Translations under genes and position numbers: made by a program
Notes under the pieces: model-generated
What the model saw: only the letters and a program-made list of their open reading frames with translations
Told to the model about the DNA's origin: nothing
Databases searched by the model: none
NCBI GenBank assembly: GCA_018066125.1
Contig: JAGHSA010000022.1
Span: 19,004-83,003, forward strand
Origin: Candidatus Cryptobacteroides onthequi
Lineage (GTDB): Bacteria > Bacteroidota > Bacteroidia > Bacteroidales > UBA932
Reading direction: 5' to 3'
Length of the DNA stretch: 64,000 nt
In this document: piece by piece, positions 2,632 through 26,931 of the stretch
Layout: each line of letters starts with the position of its first letter
How positions within the stretch are numbered: position 1 is the stretch's first letter

Positions 2632-2704
2632 GCCACTTTAGCTCAGTCGGTAGAGCAACGCATTCGTAACGCGTAGGTCGCCAGTTCAAGTCTGGCAAGT
2701 GGCT
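2632..2704 (+). tRNA. tRNA-Thr (anticodon CGT)
   Basis: A full cloverleaf can be drawn by eye: acceptor GCCACTT with AAGTGGC, D stem GCTC with GAGC, T stem GCCAG with CTGGC around TTCAAGT, and anticodon loop TTCGTAA giving anticodon CGT, which reads threonine ACG codons. The discriminator base is T. The anticodon stem closes with an A-C mismatch at its innermost pair (31-39). No CCA is encoded, so it must be added after transcription. Confidence 0.95.
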
Positions 2705-4367: not shown

Positions 4368-4395
4368 CAAAAAAAGGGAAAGCTTAGCACATCGC
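4368..4395 (-). repeat. First copy of the duplicated SRP RNA 3' end with T7 terminator
   Basis: This holds the 3' strand of the SRP RNA terminal helix followed by seven T residues on the minus strand. It is repeated, with one mismatch, at 4201-4228. Confidence 0.9.
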
Positions 4396-4472
4396 ACCGC
4401 TACGACCTCCTACCCTTGCTACATTCCTGTCCTGGGGGAGTTCAGAGGGAGCTGGTCGTGTACGACTTTCCC
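4376..4472 (-). ncRNA. ffs: Signal recognition particle RNA (4.5S-type small SRP RNA)
   Basis: The conserved SRP domain IV is directly readable on the minus strand at 4434-4417: CAGG, stem ACA, loop GGAA, stem TGT, then AGCA. These bases form the Ffh-binding asymmetric and symmetric loops and the GNRA tetraloop. The ends GGGAAAG and CTTTCCC pair to close a roughly 97-base hairpin of the small bacterial type. Inside it CGACC pairs with GGTCG and CTCCC with GGGTAG/GGAG. A -7 element sits five bases upstream and a T7 run follows immediately. The RNA joins Ffh to target nascent membrane proteins to the SecYEG channel. Confidence 0.95.
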
Positions 4473-4476
4473 GCTG

Positions 4477-4484
4477 CAAATATA
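4477..4484 (-). promoter_or_regulatory. -7 promoter element for SRP RNA
   Basis: Read on the minus strand this is TATATTTG, four bases from the first G of the mature SRP RNA. It lies immediately after the cytidine deaminase stop codon. Confidence 0.75.
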
Positions 4485-15992: not shown

Positions 15993-16838
15993 ATGGTATC
16001 AGACATCAGACTACATCTCTATTCAGGCGCAGGCAATCTCTTCCTGCTGGCTGACGGACGCAAGGGACACTGCGTGGAAGAAGACATCAAGGCACTCCAG
16101 ACAGTGGACACCATCCAGGAACTGTGTGCACGTCACGGGACAGACGGACTCATGGTGATAGAAGACTGCGGCGGTCATGACTTCCGCATGGTCTATTACA
16201 ATCCGGACGGTTCAGGCGGAATGATGTGCGGCAACGGAGGTCGCTGCATAGTGGCGTTCGCCGCCGACCTCGGCGTCGCCATGAAGGGAGAGAAGTACAT
16301 GTTCGAGGCACCGGACGGACTCCATGAGGCCGAAATACTCAGCACCAGTGACGGAGTGAAGACAGTACGGCTCAAGATGATCGATGTGGCCGCAATAGAC
16401 AGGCACAAGTCACTTGCAGTTGACGTACCGTCGGACGGTTACTTCCTCAATACAGGCACCAGACACTACGTCCGCTTCATAGATGACGTGGAAGCACTCG
16501 ATCTGGAAACGGAGGGCCGCACCATCAGATGGGCCGGGGAATTCGCACCGGCCGGCACCAACGTCAACTATGTCACCCCGAGGCAGACTGACGGTGGCAC
16601 TCTCCTCGACGTACGCACATTCGAGAAGGGAGTAGAGCGCGAGACCCAGGCATGCGGCACCGGCATAGTGGCTTCAGCCATTGCGGCATACACCCACGGC
16701 ATCACGCCGACTGAAAAGGGAGATAGTGTGCGATATGCAGTAAAAGCCAGAGGCGGCGACCTGGCAGTCGATTTCGTTCCTGCTCAGATTGCCGTCTCTG
16801 TATATCTCACGGGTCCTGCCGTGGAGCTCCCGCTCTAA
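15993..16838 (+). CDS. dapF: Diaminopimelate epimerase
   Basis: DapF interconverts LL- and meso-diaminopimelate, the precursor of lysine and peptidoglycan. The two catalytic cysteines are visible as Cys79 in GGMMCGNGGRC and Cys221 in ETQACGTGIVASA. The N-terminal motif is an unusual SGAGNLFLLAD where most homologues have GxGNDF, so the usual Asp of that loop is Leu here. Length is 281, normal. The gene closes the tamB operon and is convergent with lysA, which uses its product. Their stop codons overlap by four bases. Confidence 0.94.
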   Translation: MVSDIRLHLYSGAGNLFLLADGRKGHCVEEDIKALQTVDTIQELCARHGTDGLMVIEDCGGHDFRMVYYNPDGSGGMMCGNGGRCIVAFAADLGVAMKGEKYMFEAPDGLHEAEILSTSDGVKTVRLKMIDVAAIDRHKSLAVDVPSDGYFLNTGTRHYVRFIDDVEALDLETEGRTIRWAGEFAPAGTNVNYVTPRQTDGGTLLDVRTFEKGVERETQACGTGIVASAIAAYTHGITPTEKGDSVRYAVKARGGDLAVDFVPAQIAVSVYLTGPAVELPL

Positions 16839-17992
16839 AGCTCGTCGCTGTAGACAGCTCCAGGGAGATCGTGCTGGTTGTAGCGTGATGCCATGGACAT
16901 GCCGTAGGCACCAGCCGACTTCACGGTGAGGATGTCACCCCTTCGTGTGATAGGGAGGGTGATGTTCTCGTCGAACACATCCGTCGACTCGCAGGCCGTT
17001 CCCACCACTGTGTACTTGTCATTCTGCTCTGAAGCGGAAGTGATGTTCTCGATATTGTGGTATGCACCGTAAAGCATAGGACGGATGAGTTCTGTCATGC
17101 TGGCATCGATGATCAGGAGCTTGCGTCCGGTGGCAGTGGTCTTGTTGTAGAGAACTCTGGTGATAAGCTCGCCGCACTCGCCCACGATAGATCTTCCGAA
17201 CTCGAAATGAACCGGACGTCCGCCGACTTTGAGATTTGAATTCACAAGCTCAAATACTCTTGCGAAATCAGGGATCGGTTCTGCCTCCGGGCAATCGTAG
17301 TTGATGCCGAGTCCGCCGCCGACATCGACGAATTCAAACTTGAATCCGAGCGACACGAGGTTCTCCACGATGGCATTGACCTTGTCGCAGAGCTCATTGT
17401 ACACTCCGAAATTGCGGATCTGAGAACCGATATGGAGATGGATTCCCTTCACATCGAGATGCTCGAGTGAAAGTATCTCAGATGCCTTCGCCTGCACCTC
17501 CTCGTATGAGATGCCGAACTTGCAGTCAGCCTGGCCGGTGTCGATGCAGTGGTTCGTCTTCGGATCGATATCCGGATTGACGCGTACGCCCACAGTGACT
17601 TTCCTGCCAGCTTCCGCTGCGATCCTGTCGATCACATGCATCTCTTCAAGCGACTCGCAGTTGATGCAGAATATGCCCTGTTCGACGGCGTATCTGATCT
17701 CCTTGTCACGCTTGCCCACACCGGCATAGACGACCTTCTGGGGATCGAATCCTGCCTCGATGGCACATCTGACCTCGTTGCCGCTTGCGCAGTCGATGCC
17801 TACGCCGTAGCGGCGGATGGTCTCGATGACGCGCGGGTCGCAATTGGCCTTGATGGCGTAATGAATGGTATAACCGTATTTTGCAGCTTCACCTGTAAGT
17901 GTCTCGAGAGTCCTTTCAAGGAGTCCGAGATCATAGAAATAGAACGGAGTCTCTTTCTGCTGAAGCTTGTCTGCTACCTGTCTGCTGAGCAT
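16835..17992 (-). CDS. lysA: Diaminopimelate decarboxylase
   Basis: LysA removes CO2 from meso-diaminopimelate to give lysine, using pyridoxal phosphate. The cofactor lysine is Lys48 in HYAIKAN. HLHIGSQ, the glycine-rich VGGGLGINY and the C-terminal CESTDVF and GAYGMSMASRYN segments complete the fold type III alanine-racemase-like barrel and C-terminal domain. The frame extends 14 codons further upstream, into asnA. The ATG at 17992 (385 residues) leaves an 11-base gap and fits the family. It is the last gene of the metX-thrA-metY-asd-asnA-lysA operon. Confidence 0.96.
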   Translation of the reverse strand: MLSRQVADKLQQKETPFYFYDLGLLERTLETLTGEAAKYGYTIHYAIKANCDPRVIETIRRYGVGIDCASGNEVRCAIEAGFDPQKVVYAGVGKRDKEIRYAVEQGIFCINCESLEEMHVIDRIAAEAGRKVTVGVRVNPDIDPKTNHCIDTGQADCKFGISYEEVQAKASEILSLEHLDVKGIHLHIGSQIRNFGVYNELCDKVNAIVENLVSLGFKFEFVDVGGGLGINYDCPEAEPIPDFARVFELVNSNLKVGGRPVHFEFGRSIVGECGELITRVLYNKTTATGRKLLIIDASMTELIRPMLYGAYHNIENITSASEQNDKYTVVGTACESTDVFDENITLPITRRGDILTVKSAGAYGMSMASRYNQHDLPGAVYSDEL

Positions 17993-18003
17993 GTCCTGTC
18001 TTT

Positions 18004-19038
18004 TTATACTAAATCGATTCCCGCTGCAGCGCACTCTGCGCGCATTTCATCCGGCCAGATGCTGCACTGGATCTCACCTATATGAGCCTTCCTGAGAAGG
18101 TACATGCAGAGGCGTGACTGGCCGATACCGCCTCCGATGGTGTATGGAAGCTCTCCTGCAAGAAGCTTCTTGTGGAAATAAAGGTCTGCCTTCCACTCCT
18201 GGCCGCGCTCTGCGAGCTGTGCCTTGAGAGCGGTCTCATCCACACGGATACCCATTGAAGACACTTCGAATGCGTGTCCGAGAACTGGATTCCAGAGCAT
18301 GATATCGCCGTTGAGGCCGTTGAATCCCTCTGAATTCGGTGTGCTCCAGTCATCGTAGTCAGCGGCTCTTCCATCATGGATGGTGCCGTCTGAGAGCCTG
18401 CAGCCGATACCCATGATGAACACGGCCTTGTGCTCCTTCACGATAGCATCCTCCCTTTCCTTCGGAGAGAGACCCGGATATCTCTGGAGAAGCTCCTCTG
18501 CCGAGATGAAGAAGATATCTTCAGGAAGACCCGGCTCGATCTGAGGGAACTCTACATAGAGCTTGTTCTCTGTGACCTTTATGGACTCATATATGCGCTT
18601 TACCGTCTGCTTGAGGAAATCAAGGGTGCGGTCCTCCTTGCGGATGACCTTCTCCCAGTCCCACTGGTCCACATAGATTGAGTGGAGATTGTCAAGGTCC
18701 TCATCAGGACGGAGTGCGTTCATGTCGGTATAGATGCCCCTTCCCGGCTGGACTCCCATCTCTCCGAGCTTGAGGCGCTTCCATTTCGCGAGAGAATGCA
18801 CGACCTCGGCATTCTGCTCGTTCATGCTCTTTATAGGGAAACGCACAGGGCGCTCGACGCTGTTGAGATCGTCGTTGATACCTGTACCGGTGAGTACGAC
18901 CATCGGAGCGGTGACTCTGAGCAGTGCAAGCTGGGCAGAGAGATTCTCCTGGAACATGTCCTTGACTGCCTTGATTGCCTTCTCTGTGGCTTCAGTGCCA
19001 CCGAGGAGATTCTTGTAGTTCTTTGGGAGTGTGAGCAT
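18004..19038 (-). CDS. asnA: Aspartate-ammonia ligase (AsnA)
   Basis: AsnA makes asparagine from aspartate, ammonia and ATP and is related to class II aminoacyl-tRNA synthetases. LTGTGINDDLNSVERPVRF, GIYTDMNALRPDE and SIYVDQWDWEKVI mark the N-terminal and active-site regions. GGGIGQSRLCMYLL near the C-terminus is the class II motif 3. Length is 344, slightly more than the E. coli enzyme. It lies 12 bases after asd and 11 before lysA, so it competes for aspartate while being made from the same transcript as the other aspartate-family enzymes. Confidence 0.96.
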   Translation of the reverse strand: MLTLPKNYKNLLGGTEATEKAIKAVKDMFQENLSAQLALLRVTAPMVVLTGTGINDDLNSVERPVRFPIKSMNEQNAEVVHSLAKWKRLKLGEMGVQPGRGIYTDMNALRPDEDLDNLHSIYVDQWDWEKVIRKEDRTLDFLKQTVKRIYESIKVTENKLYVEFPQIEPGLPEDIFFISAEELLQRYPGLSPKEREDAIVKEHKAVFIMGIGCRLSDGTIHDGRAADYDDWSTPNSEGFNGLNGDIMLWNPVLGHAFEVSSMGIRVDETALKAQLAERGQEWKADLYFHKKLLAGELPYTIGGGIGQSRLCMYLLRKAHIGEIQCSIWPDEMRAECAAAGIDLV

Positions 19039-19050
19039 CTCGATATTTAA

Positions 19051-20052
19051 TTATGCGATGAAACCTTTCTTGAGCAGAAGCTCTGCTATCTGCACGGCGT
19101 TGGTCGCGGCACCCTTGCGGAGGTTGTCAGCCACGCACCAGAAGTTGAGACCGTTCTCGACAGAGAAGTCTCTGCGGATACGTCCCACGAAAACCTCATT
19201 CTTGCCCCATGCATTGATAGGCATAGGATATACATTGTTTGCGGGATCATCCTGGATGACAACGCCCGGCATGTCTGCCATGAGCCTGCGTGCCTCATCG
19301 AGGTCGAAAGGACGCTCGAACTCAAGGTTGACCGACTCAGAGTGGCCGCCCTGGACAGGGACGCGCACGGTGGTGGCTGTCACCTTGATGCTGTCGTCGC
19401 GCATGATCTTGCAGGTCTCGTTGACCATCTTCATCTCCTCCTTTGTATAGCCGTTGTCCATGAAGACATCGATATGAGGAAGGATGTTCTGGTCGATCTG
19501 GCAAGGATATACCGCCTTGTATTCGCCCCATTTCGCACCTGCGCGCTCAGCCTCCATCTGGTGGACGGCCTTATAGCCGGTACCGGTGACTGACTGGTAG
19601 GTAGAGACTACGATTCTCTTGATGCCGTATGCCTTGTGGAGCAATGGGAGAGGGAGAACCATCTGGATGGTGCTGCAGTTAGGGTTGGCGATGATATAAT
19701 CATCCTCGGTGAGGACATCGCCGTTGATTTCAGGAACGACCAGTTTCTTGGTCGGGTCCATGCGCCAGTATGCGCTGTTGTCCACCACTCGGCAGCCTGC
19801 TGCCGCAAACTGAGGTGCAAGCTCGCCTGATGTGGCGCCGCCTGCAGAGAAAAGTGCCAGTGCCGGCTTCATGGCGATGGCGTCTGCCGCACTGACCACT
19901 GTCCACTCCTTACCCTTGAATGCAACCTTCCTTCCTACTGACTTCTCCGATGCCACAGGGATGAGCTCTGTGACAGGGAAATTGCGCTCCTCAAGTACCT
20001 GGAGCATCCTTGTGCCGACCAGTCCGGTCGCGCCTACTACTGCTACTTTCAT
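19051..20052 (-). CDS. asd: Aspartate-semialdehyde dehydrogenase
   Basis: Asd reduces aspartyl phosphate to aspartate semialdehyde, the branch point to lysine, threonine and methionine. The NADP-binding start VAVVGATGLVGTRML, the catalytic Cys126 in NPNCSTIQ and the histidine in VPVQGGHSESVNLEF are all in place. Length is 333. Its ATG begins one base after the metY stop codon. Together with ThrA it supplies homoserine to MetX in the same operon. Confidence 0.97.
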   Translation of the reverse strand: MKVAVVGATGLVGTRMLQVLEERNFPVTELIPVASEKSVGRKVAFKGKEWTVVSAADAIAMKPALALFSAGGATSGELAPQFAAAGCRVVDNSAYWRMDPTKKLVVPEINGDVLTEDDYIIANPNCSTIQMVLPLPLLHKAYGIKRIVVSTYQSVTGTGYKAVHQMEAERAGAKWGEYKAVYPCQIDQNILPHIDVFMDNGYTKEEMKMVNETCKIMRDDSIKVTATTVRVPVQGGHSESVNLEFERPFDLDEARRLMADMPGVVIQDDPANNVYPMPINAWGKNEVFVGRIRRDFSVENGLNFWCVADNLRKGAATNAVQIAELLLKKGFIA

Positions 20053-20053
20053 T

Positions 20054-21346
20054 TTATTCTTTTACTGCCTTTTCAATTGCCTGTTCGATATCTGCGATGA
20101 TGTCATCCGGATCCTCGAGACCGATGCTGAGACGGATGAGATCTGGAGCCGCACCTGCCTCTATGAGCTGCTCGTCGGTCATCTGACGGTGAGTGTGTGA
20201 TGCCGGATGGAGTATGCAGGTATAGCAGTCTGCCACATGTGTCTCGATTGTGACAAACTGGAGATTGTCCATGAATCTGATGGCCACGTCACGGCCACCC
20301 TTGAGACCCCATGCGATGACGCCGCATGATCCGTCAGGGAGATACTTCTGCTGAAGATCATGATACTTGTCGCCAGGAAGGTCTGAATAGTTCACCCATG
20401 ACACCATAGGATGGCTGCTGAGGAACTCTGCCACTTTCTTTGCGCTCTCTGAGTGCTGCTTCACTCTCACATGGAGAGACTGGAGTCCGAGGTTGATATA
20501 GAATGCGTTCTGCGGGCTCTGGATGCTTCCGAAGTCACGCATGAGCTGGCTTGTCGCCTTGGTGATGTATGCGAGCTTGCCGAATTTCTTTGTATAGGTA
20601 AGCCCGTGATACGACTCGTCCGGAGTGCAGAGTCCAGGATACTTCTCTGCATTTGCCTCCCAGTCGAAATTGCCGCTGTCCACGATGACTCCACCGACTG
20701 ACACGCCGTGGCCATCCATGTACTTGGTGGTGGAATGTGTCACGATGTCGGCACCCCACTCGAAAGGACGGCAATGAACCGGAGTGGCGAAAGTATTGTC
20801 CACAATGAGCGGAACCCCGTGGCTGTGCGCTATGCGGGCGAATTTCTCCACATCGAGCACTGCGACACCCGGATTCGAGATCATCTCACCGAAGAGGAGC
20901 TTGGTGTTCGGCTTGAATGCGGCTGCAATCTCCTCCTCACTGGCATCCTGGTCGATGAATGTGACCTCGATGCCCATCTTGGCCATTGAAGTGCCGAGAA
21001 GGTTGAAAGTACCGCCGTAGATGCTGGCAGCGCTGACGATATGGTCACCGGCGTTGCAGATATTGAAGCATGCATAGAAGTTTGCTGCCTGACCTGACGA
21101 TGTGAGCATCGCTGCGACACCACCCTCGAGCGCCGCGATCTTGGCGGCAACCATGTCGTTGGTGGGATTTGCGAGTCTGGTATAGAAATATCCGCTGTCC
21201 TCAAGGTCGAAGAGACGCGCCATCTGGTCGCTGTTCTCATACTTGAATGTGGTGCTCTGGATGATAGGTATCTGACGGGATTCTCCCCTCTTAGGGTTGT
21301 ATCCTGCCTGGACACACATTGTCGCGATTGAAGGTTTCTTTGTCAT
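20054..21346 (-). CDS. metY: O-acetylhomoserine aminocarboxypropyltransferase (sulfhydrylase)
   Basis: MetY joins O-acetylhomoserine with sulfide to give homocysteine, or with methanethiol to give methionine. It belongs to the Cys/Met-metabolism PLP enzymes. IIQSTTFKYENSDQMARLF, the tyrosine/arginine segment GYFYTRLANPT and the PLP lysine in THSTTKYMDGHG are visible, and the length of 430 fits MetY rather than the shorter MetB or MetC. The ATG at 21346 was preferred over an in-frame TTG at 21364 that touches the thrA stop. Genes metX and metY in one operon define the direct sulfhydrylation route. Confidence 0.95.
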   Translation of the reverse strand: MTKKPSIATMCVQAGYNPKRGESRQIPIIQSTTFKYENSDQMARLFDLEDSGYFYTRLANPTNDMVAAKIAALEGGVAAMLTSSGQAANFYACFNICNAGDHIVSAASIYGGTFNLLGTSMAKMGIEVTFIDQDASEEEIAAAFKPNTKLLFGEMISNPGVAVLDVEKFARIAHSHGVPLIVDNTFATPVHCRPFEWGADIVTHSTTKYMDGHGVSVGGVIVDSGNFDWEANAEKYPGLCTPDESYHGLTYTKKFGKLAYITKATSQLMRDFGSIQSPQNAFYINLGLQSLHVRVKQHSESAKKVAEFLSSHPMVSWVNYSDLPGDKYHDLQQKYLPDGSCGVIAWGLKGGRDVAIRFMDNLQFVTIETHVADCYTCILHPASHTHRQMTDEQLIEAGAAPDLIRLSIGLEDPDDIIADIEQAIEKAVKE

Positions 21347-21364
21347 TATGGTTTTCTTTATCAA

Positions 21365-23830
21365 TTACAAAAGGATGTCTTTGAGCACTCCGCTGGCGGT
21401 CTGCAGTGCACCGGCTCCGGCACCCTGAATCACGAGCGGTGACGGATAGTAGTCGGTGGTGATGATGGCAGCGTTGTCTGAGCCCATGAGGTTGTACAGG
21501 GCATTTTCAGGGCCCACCTCGCAGAGACCGATGGCGGCGTCGGTGCCGTCGAGGGATGCCACGAAACGGAGGCGCCTGCCTCTGGATGCCGCAGACTCGA
21601 AGAGGCCGCGGAAATAGTCCTCGTTGTCGGAGAGCTTCTGGAAAAAGGCCTCCACATCACCCTCGAAGTACTCTGGGCCGAGGATAGGGTTTATCTTCAC
21701 GTCTGACTCCTCGATCCTGAGGCCGGACTCACGGCTGAGGATGACAAGCTTGCGGAGCACGTCCTTGCCGCTGAGGTCGATGCGCGGATCCGGCTCGGAA
21801 TAGCCCTTCTGCTGGGCGAGACGGACCACCTCCGAGAATGTAGGACCCTCTGCACCCTTATAGGTGCTGAAAATGAAATTCAGGGTGCCGGAAAGCACGG
21901 CCTGCACCTTGTGGATAGGGTCGCCGCTGTTGGTGCATCGCGCCACAGACTCAAGTACCGGGAGGGCAGCTCCCACTGTGGTTCCGTAACGGTAGCGGCA
22001 GTGGTGCGCGAGCGCGGTCTCATTGAGCTTGAGGTACTGAGGATATGGAGCCGCGAGAGGTATCTTGTTGCAGGCCACCACATGGTAGCCGCGTGCGAAG
22101 AGGTCGAGATAGCGGCACGCCATCTCGCCGTTGGCTGTACAGTCCACAAAGACTGAATCCTCCTGCGTGAGGTGGCCGAGAAGCTCGAAGTACTTGCCCT
22201 CGGAGGCATCCTCACCCTGAGCGAGGCGTTCCTTGAGGTTCTCGAGCTTGAGACCGTCGATGTCGAAGAGATATCTGCGGCTGTTGGCCAGACCGCAGAC
22301 ACGTATGCGCTTTCCGGTACGGGCGGCGATGTTGTCGCCGTTCTCGGCGATGATGTCGAGAAGCGCCTTGCCCACGGTGCCGTAACCGGCTACATAGATG
22401 TTGATGATCTTCTCTGTCGCATCATCGAAGAACTCGTCATGCACATATCTCAGGGCCTTGTCCACAAGAGATGAAGGCACGATGACGGAAATGTTGCGCT
22501 CTGACGATCCCTGGGCGGTGGCACGTACCGGGATGGCGTGCTTTCCGAGTGCGGTCAGCATGCGTCCGGTGGCTCCGCTCTGGGTGAGCACGTCATCGCC
22601 CACGAGGCAGATGATGGAGAAACCGGTCTCGACCTTCAGAGGGTTGAGCTTGCCGAGCGAGATCTCATATGCGAAGCAGTCGTCCGCTGCCTTCTTGGCC
22701 TTGATGGCATCCTTCTCCGACACCGCGATGCACATGGTGTGCACGGACGATGCCTGGGTGATGAGGATGATATTGATATCGTTGCGGCTGAGCGCATCGA
22801 AGAGACGGCTGGAGAAGCCCGGGATGCCGACCATGCCGCTTCCTTCAAGGGAGATGAGTGCGATGTTGTCGGAGTTCGACAGGCCGATCACATTACCGGA
22901 ACTGCGTGGAGGGTTCTGCTCGATCAGGGTACCCGGTGCATCAGGATTGAAGGTATTCTTCACCCTGATAGGGATTCCCTCGGATACGACAGGCTGGATG
23001 GTCGGAGGATAGATGACCTTTGCGCCGAAATGAGAGAGCTCCAGAGCTGCTCTGTACGATATGTGCTCGATTGTGAGCGCATTTGGAACCACCTTCGGAT
23101 TGGATGTCATCATACCGGTCACGTCAGTCCAGATCTCGAGAGTGCGGGCCTTGGTGCAGACCGCCGCAATGGATGCGGTATAGTCGGAACCGCCGCGGCC
23201 GAGGGTCGTGGTATGCCCCTGTGAATCGGATGCGATGAAACCCTGGATGATGAAGAGCGAAGTGAGATCGTTCTTCTCGAGCATATCCCTGAAATTGGCG
23301 CGGGTCTTGTCCATATCGACAACGTTCTTGGTGAACTCGTTGTCCTGGGTTCTGTCCTTGTTGGGGTCGGTCTTCACGATAGTGCGCGAATCAACCCACT
23401 TGCATGATATTCCGAGAGACTTGAATCTCGCCTGGATGATCCTCGTGCTGAGGAGCTCGCCATAGCTCTGGATGGCGTCGAGACTGGAGGAGCTGAGCTC
23501 GCCCACCAGATACACACCGTACACGATGGCTTTGAGCGACTCGAACTGGCCGTCGCAGACTTCTGTCGCAGCATCCCTTCCCGATTCAGGGACAAGCTCT
23601 GCTATGATGCCGTGATGACGCTCCTGGAGTGCATCCAGAAGCGACTTGTATGATTCGTCGCGTGATGCCGCCCTCTTGCCGATCTCGATGAGAGTATCGG
23701 TGCACTTGCTGATGGCCGAGCAGACAAGAATGGTCCTGTCCTTCTCGAGAGCCTTCACTACGATGTCCACAACCTTGGACATGTTCTCTGCCGAGGCAAC
23801 CGATGTGCCTCCGAATTTGAGTACCTGCAT
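21365..23830 (-). CDS. thrA: Bifunctional aspartokinase / homoserine dehydrogenase
   Basis: The 821-residue fusion catalyses the first and third steps of the aspartate family pathway. The kinase domain starts with QVLKFGGTSVASAENM and contains the TLGRGGSDYTAS site. Two ACT-type regulatory segments occupy about residues 310-455. The dehydrogenase begins with NIYVAGYGTVGKALLDII and includes DCTANGEMACRYLDL, GTTVGAALPVLE and the catalytic LSGTLNFIFSTY. It lies between metX and metY, an order that ties homoserine supply to methionine synthesis. Feedback inhibition by threonine is usual in the family but cannot be judged here. Confidence 0.97.
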   Translation of the reverse strand: MQVLKFGGTSVASAENMSKVVDIVVKALEKDRTILVCSAISKCTDTLIEIGKRAASRDESYKSLLDALQERHHGIIAELVPESGRDAATEVCDGQFESLKAIVYGVYLVGELSSSSLDAIQSYGELLSTRIIQARFKSLGISCKWVDSRTIVKTDPNKDRTQDNEFTKNVVDMDKTRANFRDMLEKNDLTSLFIIQGFIASDSQGHTTTLGRGGSDYTASIAAVCTKARTLEIWTDVTGMMTSNPKVVPNALTIEHISYRAALELSHFGAKVIYPPTIQPVVSEGIPIRVKNTFNPDAPGTLIEQNPPRSSGNVIGLSNSDNIALISLEGSGMVGIPGFSSRLFDALSRNDINIILITQASSVHTMCIAVSEKDAIKAKKAADDCFAYEISLGKLNPLKVETGFSIICLVGDDVLTQSGATGRMLTALGKHAIPVRATAQGSSERNISVIVPSSLVDKALRYVHDEFFDDATEKIINIYVAGYGTVGKALLDIIAENGDNIAARTGKRIRVCGLANSRRYLFDIDGLKLENLKERLAQGEDASEGKYFELLGHLTQEDSVFVDCTANGEMACRYLDLFARGYHVVACNKIPLAAPYPQYLKLNETALAHHCRYRYGTTVGAALPVLESVARCTNSGDPIHKVQAVLSGTLNFIFSTYKGAEGPTFSEVVRLAQQKGYSEPDPRIDLSGKDVLRKLVILSRESGLRIEESDVKINPILGPEYFEGDVEAFFQKLSDNEDYFRGLFESAASRGRRLRFVASLDGTDAAIGLCEVGPENALYNLMGSDNAAIITTDYYPSPLVIQGAGAGALQTASGVLKDILL

Positions 23831-23833
23831 ATG

Positions 23834-24847
23834 TTAGAGAAGCGGTTTTATTATTTCTGTAAGCTGTTCTGTCTCGAGGAGGAATCCGTCATGTCCGAAT
23901 GCCGAACTGATGACATGGAACTTCGCCCCCGGAATGGCCTTCGCGATGTCCTCCATTTCCTTCGGAGGGAAAAGGCCGTCGCTGTCGACAGCCACCACAT
24001 CGGTGAGTGCCTTGATGGTGCCCAGTGCGGCATCGACGCCACCGCGCTTGCGGCCTACATTATGGCTGTCGAGACTCCACGCGAGATACCAGTACGAATA
24101 GGCATCAAACCTTTTCACAAGTTTCTCGCCCTGGTAGCGCTCATACGAAGCCACCCTGCTGGAGAAGAGAGTGTCCGGATCGGTCTCGAACTGTGTCCTG
24201 TTGTAGCCCTCGGCCGAGCGGTAGGTGATCAGCGCCTGTGCTCTGGCACACTTGAGTCCTTCCCTTCCGCCTTCCAGGCTCTCGCATGCGCGGAATGTAG
24301 GATCCGCCTCGAGCGCCATCCTCTGAGCCTCGGCACCGGCGCCGAGCCACGGAGTCTCCCTGGAAGCAGTGGCTATGAATATCGCCCTCTTGAACACATC
24401 AGGCTCCATCACTGCCCACTCGATGGCCTGAAAGCCTCCGATAGAGCTTCCCACAAGCAGATCCACCTGATCGATGCCCAGATGCCTGCGCACTATGATG
24501 GACGCCTTGATCATGTCACGGACGGTAACCTTCGGGAAATCGAAGAAAAACGGCTTTCCGGTATCGGGATTGATACTTGACGGGCCGCTGGATCCATATG
24601 GAGAACCGAGCATGTTTACACAGACAATAAAGTACTTGTCGGTGTCGAAAAGCTTGCCTGGTCCCACAAGCTGAGGCCACCAGTCTTCCGCGTCGGAATT
24701 GGCGGTCAGCGCATGGCATATCCACAGCACTTTCTCCCCTTTGGTATATGTGTGTCCGGAGGTGTGATAGGCTATCTCTATGGAGTCAAGCCTGCCTCCG
24801 GCCTCGAAGACGAACTCTTCTTCTGTCTTTATCGTGAACTTTTGCAT
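23834..24847 (-). CDS. metX: Homoserine O-acetyltransferase
   Basis: MetX acetylates homoserine with acetyl-CoA, the committed step to methionine. It is an alpha/beta hydrolase with the nucleophile Ser135 in VGSSIGGFQ, the acid in VAVDSDGLFPP and the histidine in SAFGHDGFLLE. CHALTANSDAEDWW supplies the oxyanion region. Length is 337. It is the first gene of the aspartate-family operon. Its ATG forms the last three bases of a 12-base segment that can pair with an upstream methionine-rich leader frame, suggesting that its translation start is controlled by that leader. Confidence 0.95.
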   Translation of the reverse strand: MQKFTIKTEEEFVFEAGGRLDSIEIAYHTSGHTYTKGEKVLWICHALTANSDAEDWWPQLVGPGKLFDTDKYFIVCVNMLGSPYGSSGPSSINPDTGKPFFFDFPKVTVRDMIKASIIVRRHLGIDQVDLLVGSSIGGFQAIEWAVMEPDVFKRAIFIATASRETPWLGAGAEAQRMALEADPTFRACESLEGGREGLKCARAQALITYRSAEGYNRTQFETDPDTLFSSRVASYERYQGEKLVKRFDAYSYWYLAWSLDSHNVGRKRGGVDAALGTIKALTDVVAVDSDGLFPPKEMEDIAKAIPGAKFHVISSAFGHDGFLLETEQLTEIIKPLL

Positions 24848-24856
24848 ATCAATGAT
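24845..24856 (-). promoter_or_regulatory. Start-codon segment complementary to the metX leader frame
   Basis: On the minus strand this reads ATCATTGATATG, ending in the metX start codon. It is the exact reverse complement of 24980-24991, which lies inside the leader reading frame. Pairing would bury the start codon in a 12-bp helix. Confidence 0.6.
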
Positions 24857-24865
24857 TGGAAATAT

Positions 24866-24881
24866 GGCGGAACATACCGCC
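24866..24881 (-). promoter_or_regulatory. Hairpin just upstream of metX
   Basis: GGCGG and CCGCC form a short 5-bp hairpin with a 6-base loop, 18 bases before the metX start. No T-run follows, so it is not a terminator. It may help present or block the start region. Confidence 0.4.
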
Positions 24882-24950
24882 CGATGTCTTTTGTGAAGTT
24901 TATGAGAAGTGCCTCCGGAACGATACGCTCACTGCAAGGCGGATGATAGG

Positions 24951-24969
24951 ATGCATCTTAGCGATGCAT
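24951..24969 (-). promoter_or_regulatory. Hairpin over the end of the leader frame
   Basis: ATGCATC and GATGCAT form a perfect 7-bp stem with loop GCTAA. The loop holds the leader frame's stop codon and the stem holds its last Met codon, so a ribosome finishing the leader would melt it. Confidence 0.5.
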
Positions 24970-25008
24970 TCGCTTGGACATCATTGATATGTGCTTGGAT
25001 TTCCTCAT
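24958..25008 (-). CDS. Methionine-rich leader peptide of the metX operon
   Basis: An ATG about 16 bases after the predicted transcript start opens a 16-codon frame, MRKSKHISMMSKRMHR, ending in TAA. Three of the 15 codons after the start are Met, two of them in tandem (codons 9 and 10). The region before the ATG is A/T-rich, as for other genes here. Codons 6-10 include the 12 bases (24980-24991) complementary to the metX start. Leader peptides rich in the regulated amino acid are the hallmark of ribosome-mediated attenuation. I infer that role from position, composition and pairing only. Chance cannot be excluded for so short a frame. Confidence 0.55.
   Translation of the reverse strand: MRKSKHISMMSKRMHR
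24980..24991 (-). promoter_or_regulatory. Anti-start segment inside the leader frame
   Basis: On the minus strand this reads CATATCAATGAT, a perfect 12-base complement of the metX start segment at 24845-24856. It overlaps the tandem Met codons of the leader peptide, so a ribosome paused there would cover it. Confidence 0.55.
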
Positions 25009-25030
25009 AACGTTCACAAAAATAACAACT

Positions 25031-25038
25031 CAAAGGTA
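25031..25038 (-). promoter_or_regulatory. -7 promoter element for the metX operon
   Basis: Minus-strand TACCTTTG predicts a transcript start near 25024 and so an untranslated leader of about 177 bases, much longer than others in the window. Confidence 0.6.
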
Positions 25039-25065
25039 CATTTCCAAAATTTTTTAATATTACAC

Positions 25066-25092
25066 GAAAACTGCCGGCACAAAGGCCGGCAG
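25066..25092 (-). terminator. Rho-independent terminator after apt
   Basis: A perfect 8-bp stem, CTGCCGGC with GCCGGCAG, has a 6-base loop and is followed by TTTTCG on the minus strand. It lies 45 bases beyond the apt stop and separates apt from the metX operon. Confidence 0.85.
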
Positions 25093-25136
25093 TTCATCGG
25101 AATCATCCTGAAGACGGTATGTGAATGTATCTGGAA

Positions 25137-25712
25137 TCAGACTTTGATGATGCTCCTGACAGGGGCTATCTGGGAGAGCATCTCTGCCGCTCCGGGTATC
25201 TCGGAAGCAAGTTCCACGATGAAGACGAATTCCTTGACCTTCACCTGGTATGTCTTGCCGTCCACAGTCACCTTCTCACTGTTCAGTGCCTCTGCGATGC
25301 CCTTGGCGGTACCGCCGGTCGCGAGGATGTCGTCGAGGATAGAGACATACATGATATCTCCATCAGGCACACCGGCTGCGATGTCGGAAAGTCTGTAATA
25401 CACATGATCCTTGCCATATTCCTTGGTGATGGCCACATCGTGGAGGTCGTCACCTGAGAAAGGAAGCTTGCCCTTCTTGCGGATGGCGATCACATTCGCC
25501 ACATTCTCGGTCTCGGTGAGAAGCGGTGCTGCGAAAAGGAAGCCTCTGGCCTCGACAGTCGCCACATTCGGGCAAGTCAGGGCATCGGCAATATCATTGA
25601 CAATAGACTTGAACGCCTCTCTGTTCTGGAGCAGAGGCATGATGTCTATGAAATCGATTCCCGGGATAGGGAAATCAGGATAGTGCTTGAGTATAGTGTC
25701 GTACTTTCCCAT
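25137..25712 (-). CDS. apt: Adenine phosphoribosyltransferase family protein
   Basis: The 191-residue enzyme is of the type that joins adenine to PRPP to give AMP. The N-terminal YPDFPIPGIDFIDIMPLLQN segment matches Apt closely. The PRPP-binding loop ILDDILATGGTAKG sits near residue 127, and EARGFLFAAPLL matches the conserved substrate region. The upstream in-frame extension runs back into aspC, so the ATG at 25712 was chosen, ten bases after the aspC stop. The pair is very likely one operon. Substrate specificity for adenine is inferred from similarity only. Confidence 0.85.
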   Translation of the reverse strand: MGKYDTILKHYPDFPIPGIDFIDIMPLLQNREAFKSIVNDIADALTCPNVATVEARGFLFAAPLLTETENVANVIAIRKKGKLPFSGDDLHDVAITKEYGKDHVYYRLSDIAAGVPDGDIMYVSILDDILATGGTAKGIAEALNSEKVTVDGKTYQVKVKEFVFIVELASEIPGAAEMLSQIAPVRSIIKV

Positions 25713-25722
25713 GGCTGCAAAA

Positions 25723-26931
25723 TCATATAGTTCTTCCAGGATATGCCTTAAGGCCTTCTGCAAGGATGGTGAGTGCCTTTCTGAGCTCAGGGACCTCAAG
25801 CACGTAGGCGATGCGCACCTGATGCTTGCCGGCATCCGGAGTCCTGTAGAATGAAGCCACCGGTGTGGTCATGGTAGTAGCTCCGTCAAGTCTGAAGTCT
25901 GTCAGCATCCAGCGGCAGAATGATTCGGCATCATCAACAGGCAGTTCTGCGATGGTATAGAATGCTCCGAGAGGTGTAGGCGCGAAAACGCCCGGCATTG
26001 CGTTGAGCATCTCGATGGCGCAGTCACGGCGTGCGATGTATTCAGCCTTGACTTCATCGAAGTACTCCTGAGGGGTGTCAAGGGCACCGATGGCTGCATA
26101 CTGGCCGAGAACCGGAGGACACAGACGTGACTGTCCGAACTTGAGAGCGGCTGCCATCACATCCTTGTTGTGTGAGGCGATGCATCCGATACGTGCACCG
26201 CAGAGGTTGTATCTCTTGGAAACAGAGTCTACGAGGATCACATTCTGCTCGAGGCCTGGGATGTTCATGGCTGAGAAATGAGGCTCGTCTGTGTAGCAGA
26301 ACTCACGGTAGACCTCATCTGAGATGAGGAAAAGGTCATGCTTCTTGCAGAACTCGCCGAGAGCGAGCATCTCTTCCTTTGAGAAGAGCTTTCCGCTAGG
26401 GTTGCAAGGGTTGCTGATGAGAACCGCCTTTGTCTTCGGAGTCACGACCTTCTCGAACTCATCGATGGATGAGAGCTTGAACCCCTCCTTGATGTCGGTA
26501 TGGATGGCCTTCAGGGTGATTCCGTTGAGGACCGCAAAGGTGTTGTAGTTTGTATAGTAAGGCTCGATGACGATGATCTCGTCGCCCTTGTCGGCAGCGA
26601 TCTGCATAGCTACTGCGAAAGCCTCGCTTCCCGCAACCTCCACCATGATCTCAGACGGCTCGAGGTCAATGCCGATCTTGCGGTAGTACTTCTCGATGAG
26701 ACCTGTCCTGAGCTCAGCAAAGCCGAGAGAATTGGTGTACGAGATATGATCGAGTGTGCGGCACTTGTCAGCGACATAGTCAAGGGCACATCTTGGAGAC
26801 TTGATGTCAGGTGCACCTACATTGAGGTGGTACACTTTGGTTCCTGATGCCTTTGCCGCGTCAGCGAGAGGGACGAACTTCCTGATGGCCGAAGCCGGCA
26901 TGGTCGATGCTTTACTTGAAATTGATGGCAT
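25723..26931 (-). CDS. Pyridoxal-phosphate aminotransferase (aspartate aminotransferase type)
   Basis: This is a class I aminotransferase of 402 residues. YHLNVGAPDIKSP near residue 35 starts the small domain, VLISNPCNPSGKLF holds the conserved Asn and Pro, and VDSVSKRYNLCGARIGCIAS carries the PLP-binding lysine with the nearby arginine. Similar Bacteroidota proteins are annotated as aspartate aminotransferase, which would supply aspartate to the metX operon lying just downstream. The true amino-donor preference cannot be read from the sequence. It has its own promoter and leads apt. Confidence 0.85.
   Translation of the reverse strand: MPSISSKASTMPASAIRKFVPLADAAKASGTKVYHLNVGAPDIKSPRCALDYVADKCRTLDHISYTNSLGFAELRTGLIEKYYRKIGIDLEPSEIMVEVAGSEAFAVAMQIAADKGDEIIVIEPYYTNYNTFAVLNGITLKAIHTDIKEGFKLSSIDEFEKVVTPKTKAVLISNPCNPSGKLFSKEEMLALGEFCKKHDLFLISDEVYREFCYTDEPHFSAMNIPGLEQNVILVDSVSKRYNLCGARIGCIASHNKDVMAAALKFGQSRLCPPVLGQYAAIGALDTPQEYFDEVKAEYIARRDCAIEMLNAMPGVFAPTPLGAFYTIAELPVDDAESFCRWMLTDFRLDGATTMTTPVASFYRTPDAGKHQVRIAYVLEVPELRKALTILAEGLKAYPGRTI

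Follow-up and report, generated by a model that had tools for sequence, protein, structure and literature searches.

We consider it fairly likely that the metX-thrA-metY-asd-asnA-lysA operon of Candidatus Cryptobacteroides onthequi is controlled by a translational attenuator, in which stalling at the Met codons of a short leader frame would expose the start codon of metX. According to the proposed mechanism, a ribosome would begin on this frame nearly at the 5' end of the mRNA. With plentiful charged Met-tRNA, it would read through, terminate and depart, and the leader segment CATATCAATGAT would then pair with the metX start segment ATCATTGATATG, leaving metX untranslated. With scarce Met-tRNA, the ribosome would wait with Met codon 9, 10 or 14 in the A site and cover the anti-start segment wholly or partly, and the metX start would be free for translation. 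We infer that methionine shortage stalls the ribosome and which way metX responds. Computation gave the frame with its coding signature, the co-varying pairing and the modelled effect of ribosome position. A leader peptide for methionine is conceptually awkward, because every translation of the leader itself begins with Met, and low methionine should also decrease charged initiator tRNA, which opposes the scheme. Since initiation uses Met as well, the leader would have to respond to elongator Met-tRNA with initiation still intact.

All positions refer to the window, i.e., the whole analysed stretch of 64,000 nucleotides, and the relevant features are listed in the table below. The genes follow each other in the order metX, aspartate kinase/homoserine dehydrogenase, metY, asd, asnA and lysA, and an effect of the leader on the rest of the operon, namely the five genes downstream of metX, may be expected from the gene order. 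The leader itself is located on the minus strand between metX and an apt-like gene (frame 25137-25835), which yielded a Pfam phosphoribosyltransferase domain match below the cut-off. A search of genome contigs returned metagenome-assembled genomes (MAGs) of Bacteroidales as carriers of the nearest similar loci, several of them named Candidatus Cryptobacteroides. The Rfam matches elsewhere in the window were a Bacteroidales small SRP RNA (4372-4479, minus strand) and a tRNA (2632-2704, plus strand).

Table. Genes of the metX operon and elements of its leader in the window
Feature	Position	Strand	Support
metX, homoserine O-acetyltransferase-like	23834..24847	minus	best match TIGR01392, 326.9 bits, below cut-off 500
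Bifunctional aspartate kinase / homoserine dehydrogenase, thrA-like	21365..23830	minus	NF006959, above cut-off
metY, O-acetylhomoserine sulfhydrylase	20054..21364	minus	TIGR01326, above cut-off
asd, aspartate-semialdehyde dehydrogenase	19051..20052	minus	NF011456 and TIGR01296, above cut-off
asnA, aspartate-ammonia ligase	18004..19038	minus	TIGR00669, above cut-off
lysA, diaminopimelate decarboxylase	16835..18034	minus	TIGR01048, above cut-off
-33-type promoter element TTTTG	25045..25049	minus	sequence
-7-type promoter box TATTTTTG, 8 bases 5' of leader ATG	25017..25024	minus	sequence; gaps in genus
Short leader frame MRKSKHISMMSKRMHR-stop, 16 codons	24958..25008	minus	sequence; synonymous third-position changes and in-frame Met enrichment in 60 relatives
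Anti-start segment CATATCAATGAT, leader codons 6-10	24980..24991	minus	exact reverse complement of 24845-24856; co-variation
Hairpin ATGCATC-GCTAA-GATGCAT across Met14 codon and leader stop (7 bp; arms 24969-24963 and 24957-24951)	24951..24969	minus	fold; relatives
metX start segment ATCATTGATATG, pairs with anti-start segment, ends in metX ATG	24845..24856	minus	sequence, fold

The original prediction, made from the letters of this DNA, had described a 16-codon Met frame, an exact 12-base complement between this frame and the metX start, a 7-bp hairpin over the leader stop and a lack of any T-run hairpin before metX, and all four were confirmed. The longest exact complement that the short frame shares with the region around the metX start has 12 bases, a length reached by none of 4000 mononucleotide shuffles of both parts (mean 5.2, maximum 10). 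No other 12-mer anywhere in the leader than CATATCAATGAT has its reverse complement further downstream. The 12-bp helix is also present in the minimum-energy fold of the leader. The fold of the whole leader was mildly better than those of shuffled sequences (z of -2.29 and -1.61 in two runs), so that the folding energy by itself proves little. Scanning 24780-25140 for terminator-like hairpins yielded none on the minus strand.

One element had to be revised. The promoter had been placed at TACCTTTG, giving a leader of about 177 bases. Reading the promoter elements against the Bacteroidetes consensus, the box is probably TATTTTTG instead, because the gap between box and ATG amounts to 7-11 bases in the leaders of the same genus, compared to 8 bases for TATTTTTG and 22 for TACCTTTG. 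The TTTTG element is separated from TATTTTTG by 20 bases, and 28 of 39 metX leaders contain a TTG 15-26 nt 5' of their TAnnTTTG box. With this box, only a few bases would thus separate the frame from the transcript start, and the leader would have about 165 bases if the transcript begins a few bases 3' of TATTTTTG. By eye, we noticed a GC-strong hairpin after the apt-like gene at 25060-25100 on the minus strand, consisting of CTGCCGGC, the loop CTTTGT and GCCGGCAG, followed by TTTTCGTG, which the scan of 24780-25140 did not list. It looks like a terminator of the apt-like gene, and the leader would therefore start its own transcript.

Related leaders were selected for three features, namely a motif resembling RMHR, the hairpin that goes with it and a gene for metX or metY at most 520 bases away. 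This yielded 60 distinct leaders (designated by L numbers) from one family of the Bacteroidales, 41 before metX and 19 before metY. The conservation of these three features is thus a result of the selection, which did not extend to the other parts of the frame, to its Met content or to the pairing with the start. The hairpin pattern with up to one mismatch occurred in 37 of 300 genomes of the genus, 26 of them with exact matches; the exact matches examined stand before metX, and L144 is the sole one-mismatch match to do so. A covariance model (R1) built from 27 leaders detected the element in 34 of 149 genomes of the family, distributed over 12 of 25 genera, and in only 38 of 400 genomes of the genus, which is a weak point of the attenuator reading. 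Positive genomes of either search contained a single match each.

Beyond the family, model R1 matched the own genome alone among 198 genomes of the order. In 296 genomes of the phylum, the hairpin pattern was found in nine besides the own one, each time with single-mismatch matches, and the three loci of these nine genomes that agreed with the regular expression had no adjoining metX. Using a model R2 at an E value of 0.01, we obtained, besides the own genome, matches in 7 of 178 genomes of the order and 4 of 159 of the class. Because tblastn detected neither metX nor metY at these 11 loci, we took them as chance matches and rejected them as true relatives. The order, phylum and class searches were run with strict filters, by which weak matches are lost. 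Thirty-one loci of genus members without the leader were also inspected by eye for the stretch before metY, which contained no RMHR-like element; in some of these loci, metY is located 3' of metX. A shortened relative (L097/L203, genome G126, with L203 as a weak model match) has lost the RMHR end and was excluded from the 60. It is located upstream of metX and retains the frame start and the TTGATATG pairing. Along with the RMHR end, it lacks the hairpin and most of the spacer, so that metX follows only about 40 bases past the motif.

The short frame looks protein-coding in this collection. The presence of a Met-rich frame in relatives had been named as a check in the original prediction, and all 60 leaders indeed contain an open in-frame start upstream of the RMHR-like motif, which itself was required. 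For L210, L213, L214, L216, L226, L228 and L233, several starts of the frame are possible, and the one used for the collection and for the composition counts is a guess. Outside of the start codon and RMHR, Met accounts for 14.7% of 810 residues, compared to 0.3% and 0.4% in the other two frames. At least one such extra Met is present in 58 of the 60 leaders and at least two in 45, as in the frames MKRETFISMMMMMRMHRKMLA (L224) and MNRLFYISSMIMRMHR (L211); L029 and L055 have no Met except those of the start and RMHR. The conserved residues Ser8 and Ser11 are encoded by TCA, TCT, TCC and TCG in the 42 twelve-codon leaders, and three leaders of the genus (L101, L194, L202) are longer by exactly one codon.

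The conservation of the peptide, I-S-x-x-S-x-R-M-H-R, exceeds what is needed for the Met codons, which is a further weak point of the attenuator reading, judged from these alignments. It would be expected if the nascent peptide itself arrested the ribosome in response to a small molecule of methionine metabolism, with the same output on metX, and the synonymous changes at Ser8 and Ser11 as well as the nearly fixed RMHR agree with such an arrest. However, the conservation of RMHR is partly due to the overlapping hairpin and to the search motif, the frame is strongly enriched in Met, and one peptide (L213) is rich in Thr instead. We therefore regard arrest by the peptide as unlikely.

The pairing of the leader with the metX start was evaluated with 39 of the 41 metX leaders, omitting L216, for which the script found no ATG, and L198, whose metX start is 414 bases past the motif. 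The average energy between own leader and own start was -16.97 kcal/mol, compared to -14.15 kcal/mol for permuted partners, and none of 20,000 permutations was as good. Restricting the set to metX proteins of less than 80% identity (n = 24) or less than 75% identity (n = 17) gave 2 and 0 of 20,000, respectively, and an earlier run with 28 of 29 leaders, without the shortened L097, had given 1 of 20,000. Inspection by eye identified different partners: CATATCAATG and CATTGATATG in the window, L011, L018, L044, L071 and L125; CATATCTGTC and GACAGATATG in L103 and, shorter, in L047, L069 and L096; and GAATATTTCAG and CTGAAATATTC in L223 and L231. The covarying pairing that the original prediction had asked for is therefore borne out: as judged from the aligned leaders, the partners are re-made with other bases in several lineages. 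In a test of single sequences, 23 of the 39 leaders had at most 10 of 200 dinucleotide shuffles with equally strong pairing.

Control segments were treated in the same way. A segment shifted 20 bases upstream, which overlaps the start region, reached 312, 3350 and 602 of 20,000 permutations (n = 39, 24 and 17), and the values were 2942, 5945 and 5787 after shifting by 30 bases and 4282, 3297 and 3465 after shifting by 38 bases. A piece of metX coding sequence, taken as a control, likewise favoured its own leader (33, 28 and 207 of 20,000), with a gain for the own partner of 1.1-1.5 kcal/mol versus 2.5-3.2 kcal/mol for the start region. Part of the pairing signal may therefore be background from relatedness or composition, or reflect extended pairing. 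As a separate observation from the 39 metX leaders, the segment 20-58 bases past the leader stop showed the opposite tendency: its pairing with the metX start of its own genome was matched or exceeded by 19,982, 19,904 and 19,222 of 20,000 permutations.

To describe the effect of ribosome position, the cost of opening the metX start region was calculated by an energy model with a 31-base ribosome footprint placed at each codon of the 39 leaders. When the A site contained a Met codon, the most effective one of each frame being used, this cost decreased by 4.09 kcal/mol on average, compared to 0.14 kcal/mol for footprints in the spacer. In the window, it was 5.4 kcal/mol for the free leader, 1.9 at Met9 and Met10, 2.0 at Met14 and 5.7 when the A site contained the stop codon. 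In this model, metX is thus freed by a waiting ribosome but not by a terminating one. The predicted exposure of the start by a ribosome at codons 9-10 was therefore reproduced for the window, but these codons are not general in the family, since Met9 is present in 23 and Met10 in 35 of the 42 twelve-codon leaders. The Met of RMHR at codon 14 occurs in all 42, as demanded by the search motif.

As a switch across the family, the model holds for most metX leaders: 30 of 39 gain 2 kcal/mol or more, and 31 of 39 lie above every control footprint. The gain stays below 2 kcal/mol in nine (L029, L101, L133, L161, L163, L183, L206, L207, L209), and only one of the 19 metY leaders (L210) reaches this value. 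Eight metX leaders were not above every control footprint (L018, L029, L049, L133, L163, L206, L207, L209). In about six of the 39 (L018, L127, L144, L148, L164, L188), opening the start becomes cheaper by 2 kcal/mol or more with the ribosome at the stop codon as well, so the contrast between stalled and terminating ribosomes is not general. TnaC stalls at its stop codon. A peptide arrest of this type would fail in the window, where the start is not freed from that position, and could work in those six or so relatives.

The opening effect was alike for most codons of the frame. Therefore, the stall model alone does not single out Met, and the amino-acid specificity rests on the composition of the frame. 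Taken together, the energy model and the co-variation point to mutually exclusive RNA structures set by the position of the ribosome. The only mildly improved overall fold would also suit a chance arrangement or a plain upstream frame without a regulatory role, but this is contradicted by the conservation over 60 leaders, the coding signature, the pairing permutations and the ribosome model, and we give it next to no credence.

The hairpin that spans the Met codon of RMHR and the leader stop retains its 7 bp in the relatives, partly through the motif selection, with the two outermost pairs broken in some of them. Its loop varies from 4 to 9 bases, and a single compensatory change was found (ATGCAAC/GTTGCAT in L209); both are as expected of an RNA element, as far as can be read from the alignment. 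At the DNA level, the inverted repeat ATGCATC-N5-GATGCAT might be an operator bound by a repressor just 3' of the promoter, and it is almost invariant in the collected relatives and close to the promoter. However, the spacing of its arms (4-9 bases) and its distance to the promoter box vary while the reading frame is kept, and the own genome contains one exact match of the pattern, with three mismatches in all others. We rejected a transcription-factor operator as extremely unlikely because the loop length varies and the frame is conserved; a fixed spacing of half-sites was not found.

A second hairpin was recognised in the leaders of the genus (columns 75-105 of alignment A1, which comprises 27 leaders and omits L097 and the near-duplicate L120). 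Counted on this alignment, its loop is GGGAU or AGGAU in 20 of 27 leaders, and the whole genus structure including this hairpin has 40 two-sided changes versus 21.0 in shuffled alignments (0 of 500 as high). The hairpin is often followed by GGCGGC, and its GAUGC could compete for the 5' arm of the first hairpin. Such a co-varying structure with a conserved loop might belong to the aptamer of a riboswitch for SAM or another ligand that happens to contain the frame, but the second hairpin is missing from the window, L029, L055, L133 and others and is thus not essential.

Database searches argue in the same direction. Neither the window leader nor 20 relatives matched any Rfam 15 family at the gathering score, and the seven matches to the window leader at E values up to 10 were all far below their gathering scores and included no T-box. 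SAM-I (RF00162) and SAM-II (RF00521) gave no match in the own genome, and six weak SAM-II matches in 101 genomes of the genus were all below the cut-off. A riboswitch would also leave the coding signature and the Met enrichment unexplained, and we consider it highly unlikely.

Leaders before metY retain the frame and the hairpin, and their pairing with the start is weak (680 of 20,000 permutations). The modelled ribosome had little effect in 18 of 19, with leaders shortened for this calculation if they had more than 60 bases before the motif. A crude script flagged terminator-like hairpins in six of them (L214, L215, L220, L221, L225, L233), and those of L214, L220 and L233, which have T-runs and were accepted by eye, are plausible terminators before metY, so that transcription attenuation is possible in these lineages. 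As a further observation, L224 and L228/L229 contain runs of 3-5 Met codons (ATGATGATG) that are able to pair with CATCATC just 5' of metY; this was seen in the fold for L224 and by eye for L228, with modelled gains of 1.2 and 0.7 kcal/mol.

The frame of L213 is rich in Thr (MTTTLNTGITSNITTSATTIASMRMHR, read from one of three possible starts) and keeps the MRMHR end and the hairpin. It precedes a metY-metX-thrA-asd operon, with the genes named by sequence resemblance, and fits the sensing of the other product of homoserine, as judged from this single genome. Its peptide resembles that of E. coli thrL. Seen together, the leaders may represent a new class of methionine attenuators, encountered so far in one Bacteroidales family, in which the codons also form the anti-start strand and the RMHR peptide and its hairpin serve as a reusable stall module. 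Around this module, evolution would have exchanged the sensing codons (mostly Met, in one lineage Thr) as well as the output, which would be pairing with the start in front of metX and termination in front of some metY genes. We put this wider reading forward tentatively, with rather less than even confidence.

If the attenuator exists as proposed, attenuation by stalling can serve methionine, an amino acid usually sensed via SAM, T-boxes or repressors. It would also provide a naturally occurring case of translational attenuation in a phylum where most initiation does not involve Shine-Dalgarno pairing, and the leaders would form an evolutionary series with a constant module and interchangeable sensor codons and outputs. 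This series makes the mechanism directly testable.

The original prediction was not aware of any described riboswitch or leader of this kind. Among the matches listed from the open-licence PMC literature, nothing relevant on methionine or Met-codon leader peptides was found, and together with the lack of an Rfam match, this led us to class the element as a variant of the amino-acid leader-peptide attenuators. Excerpts of published work assign methionine to the S-box and histidine, threonine and phenylalanine to attenuators (PMC1262725), describe other leader peptides (PMC2965389, PMC8632094), treat leader genes and reinitiation, citing a 2014 paper on leader genes and sulfur metabolism (PMC4833913), report possible leader frames in Bacteroides thetaiotaomicron (PMC7366714) and mention SAM-II before metX (PMC2704228). 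That ribosomes can stall in leader peptides has long been established; the features that seem new here are the amino acid, the direct pairing of leader and start, and the family.

Several known systems are related to the metX leader in part. The leaders trpL, hisL, thrL and ilv are ribosome-mediated attenuators of amino-acid operons. They share with the metX leader a short frame rich in codons for the product, helices that compete with a stalled ribosome and a biosynthetic operon located 3'. In contrast to these, the leader of the window would read Met and act on the start codon of metX as the first gene, with no terminator involved (a classical transcription attenuator was not found, as the minus-strand scan of the window detected no intrinsic terminator before metX), its codons carry the anti-start sequence, and the frame starts nearly at the 5' end of the mRNA. 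Translational attenuators of the erm type also use a stalled leader ribosome to open the start of the next gene, but their stall is caused by an antibiotic and rearranges hairpins, whereas the metX leader has a direct helix between leader and start and belongs to a biosynthetic operon. SAM riboswitches, Met T-boxes and MetJ control the same pathway step, but they sense SAM or tRNA via RNA or protein, whereas a translated peptide frame would be used in the metX leader. Finally, the MTO1 arrest peptide of Arabidopsis CGS1, compared with the metX leader by description only, likewise represents nascent-peptide control of methionine synthesis, but it is eukaryotic, is located within the main frame and causes mRNA decay.
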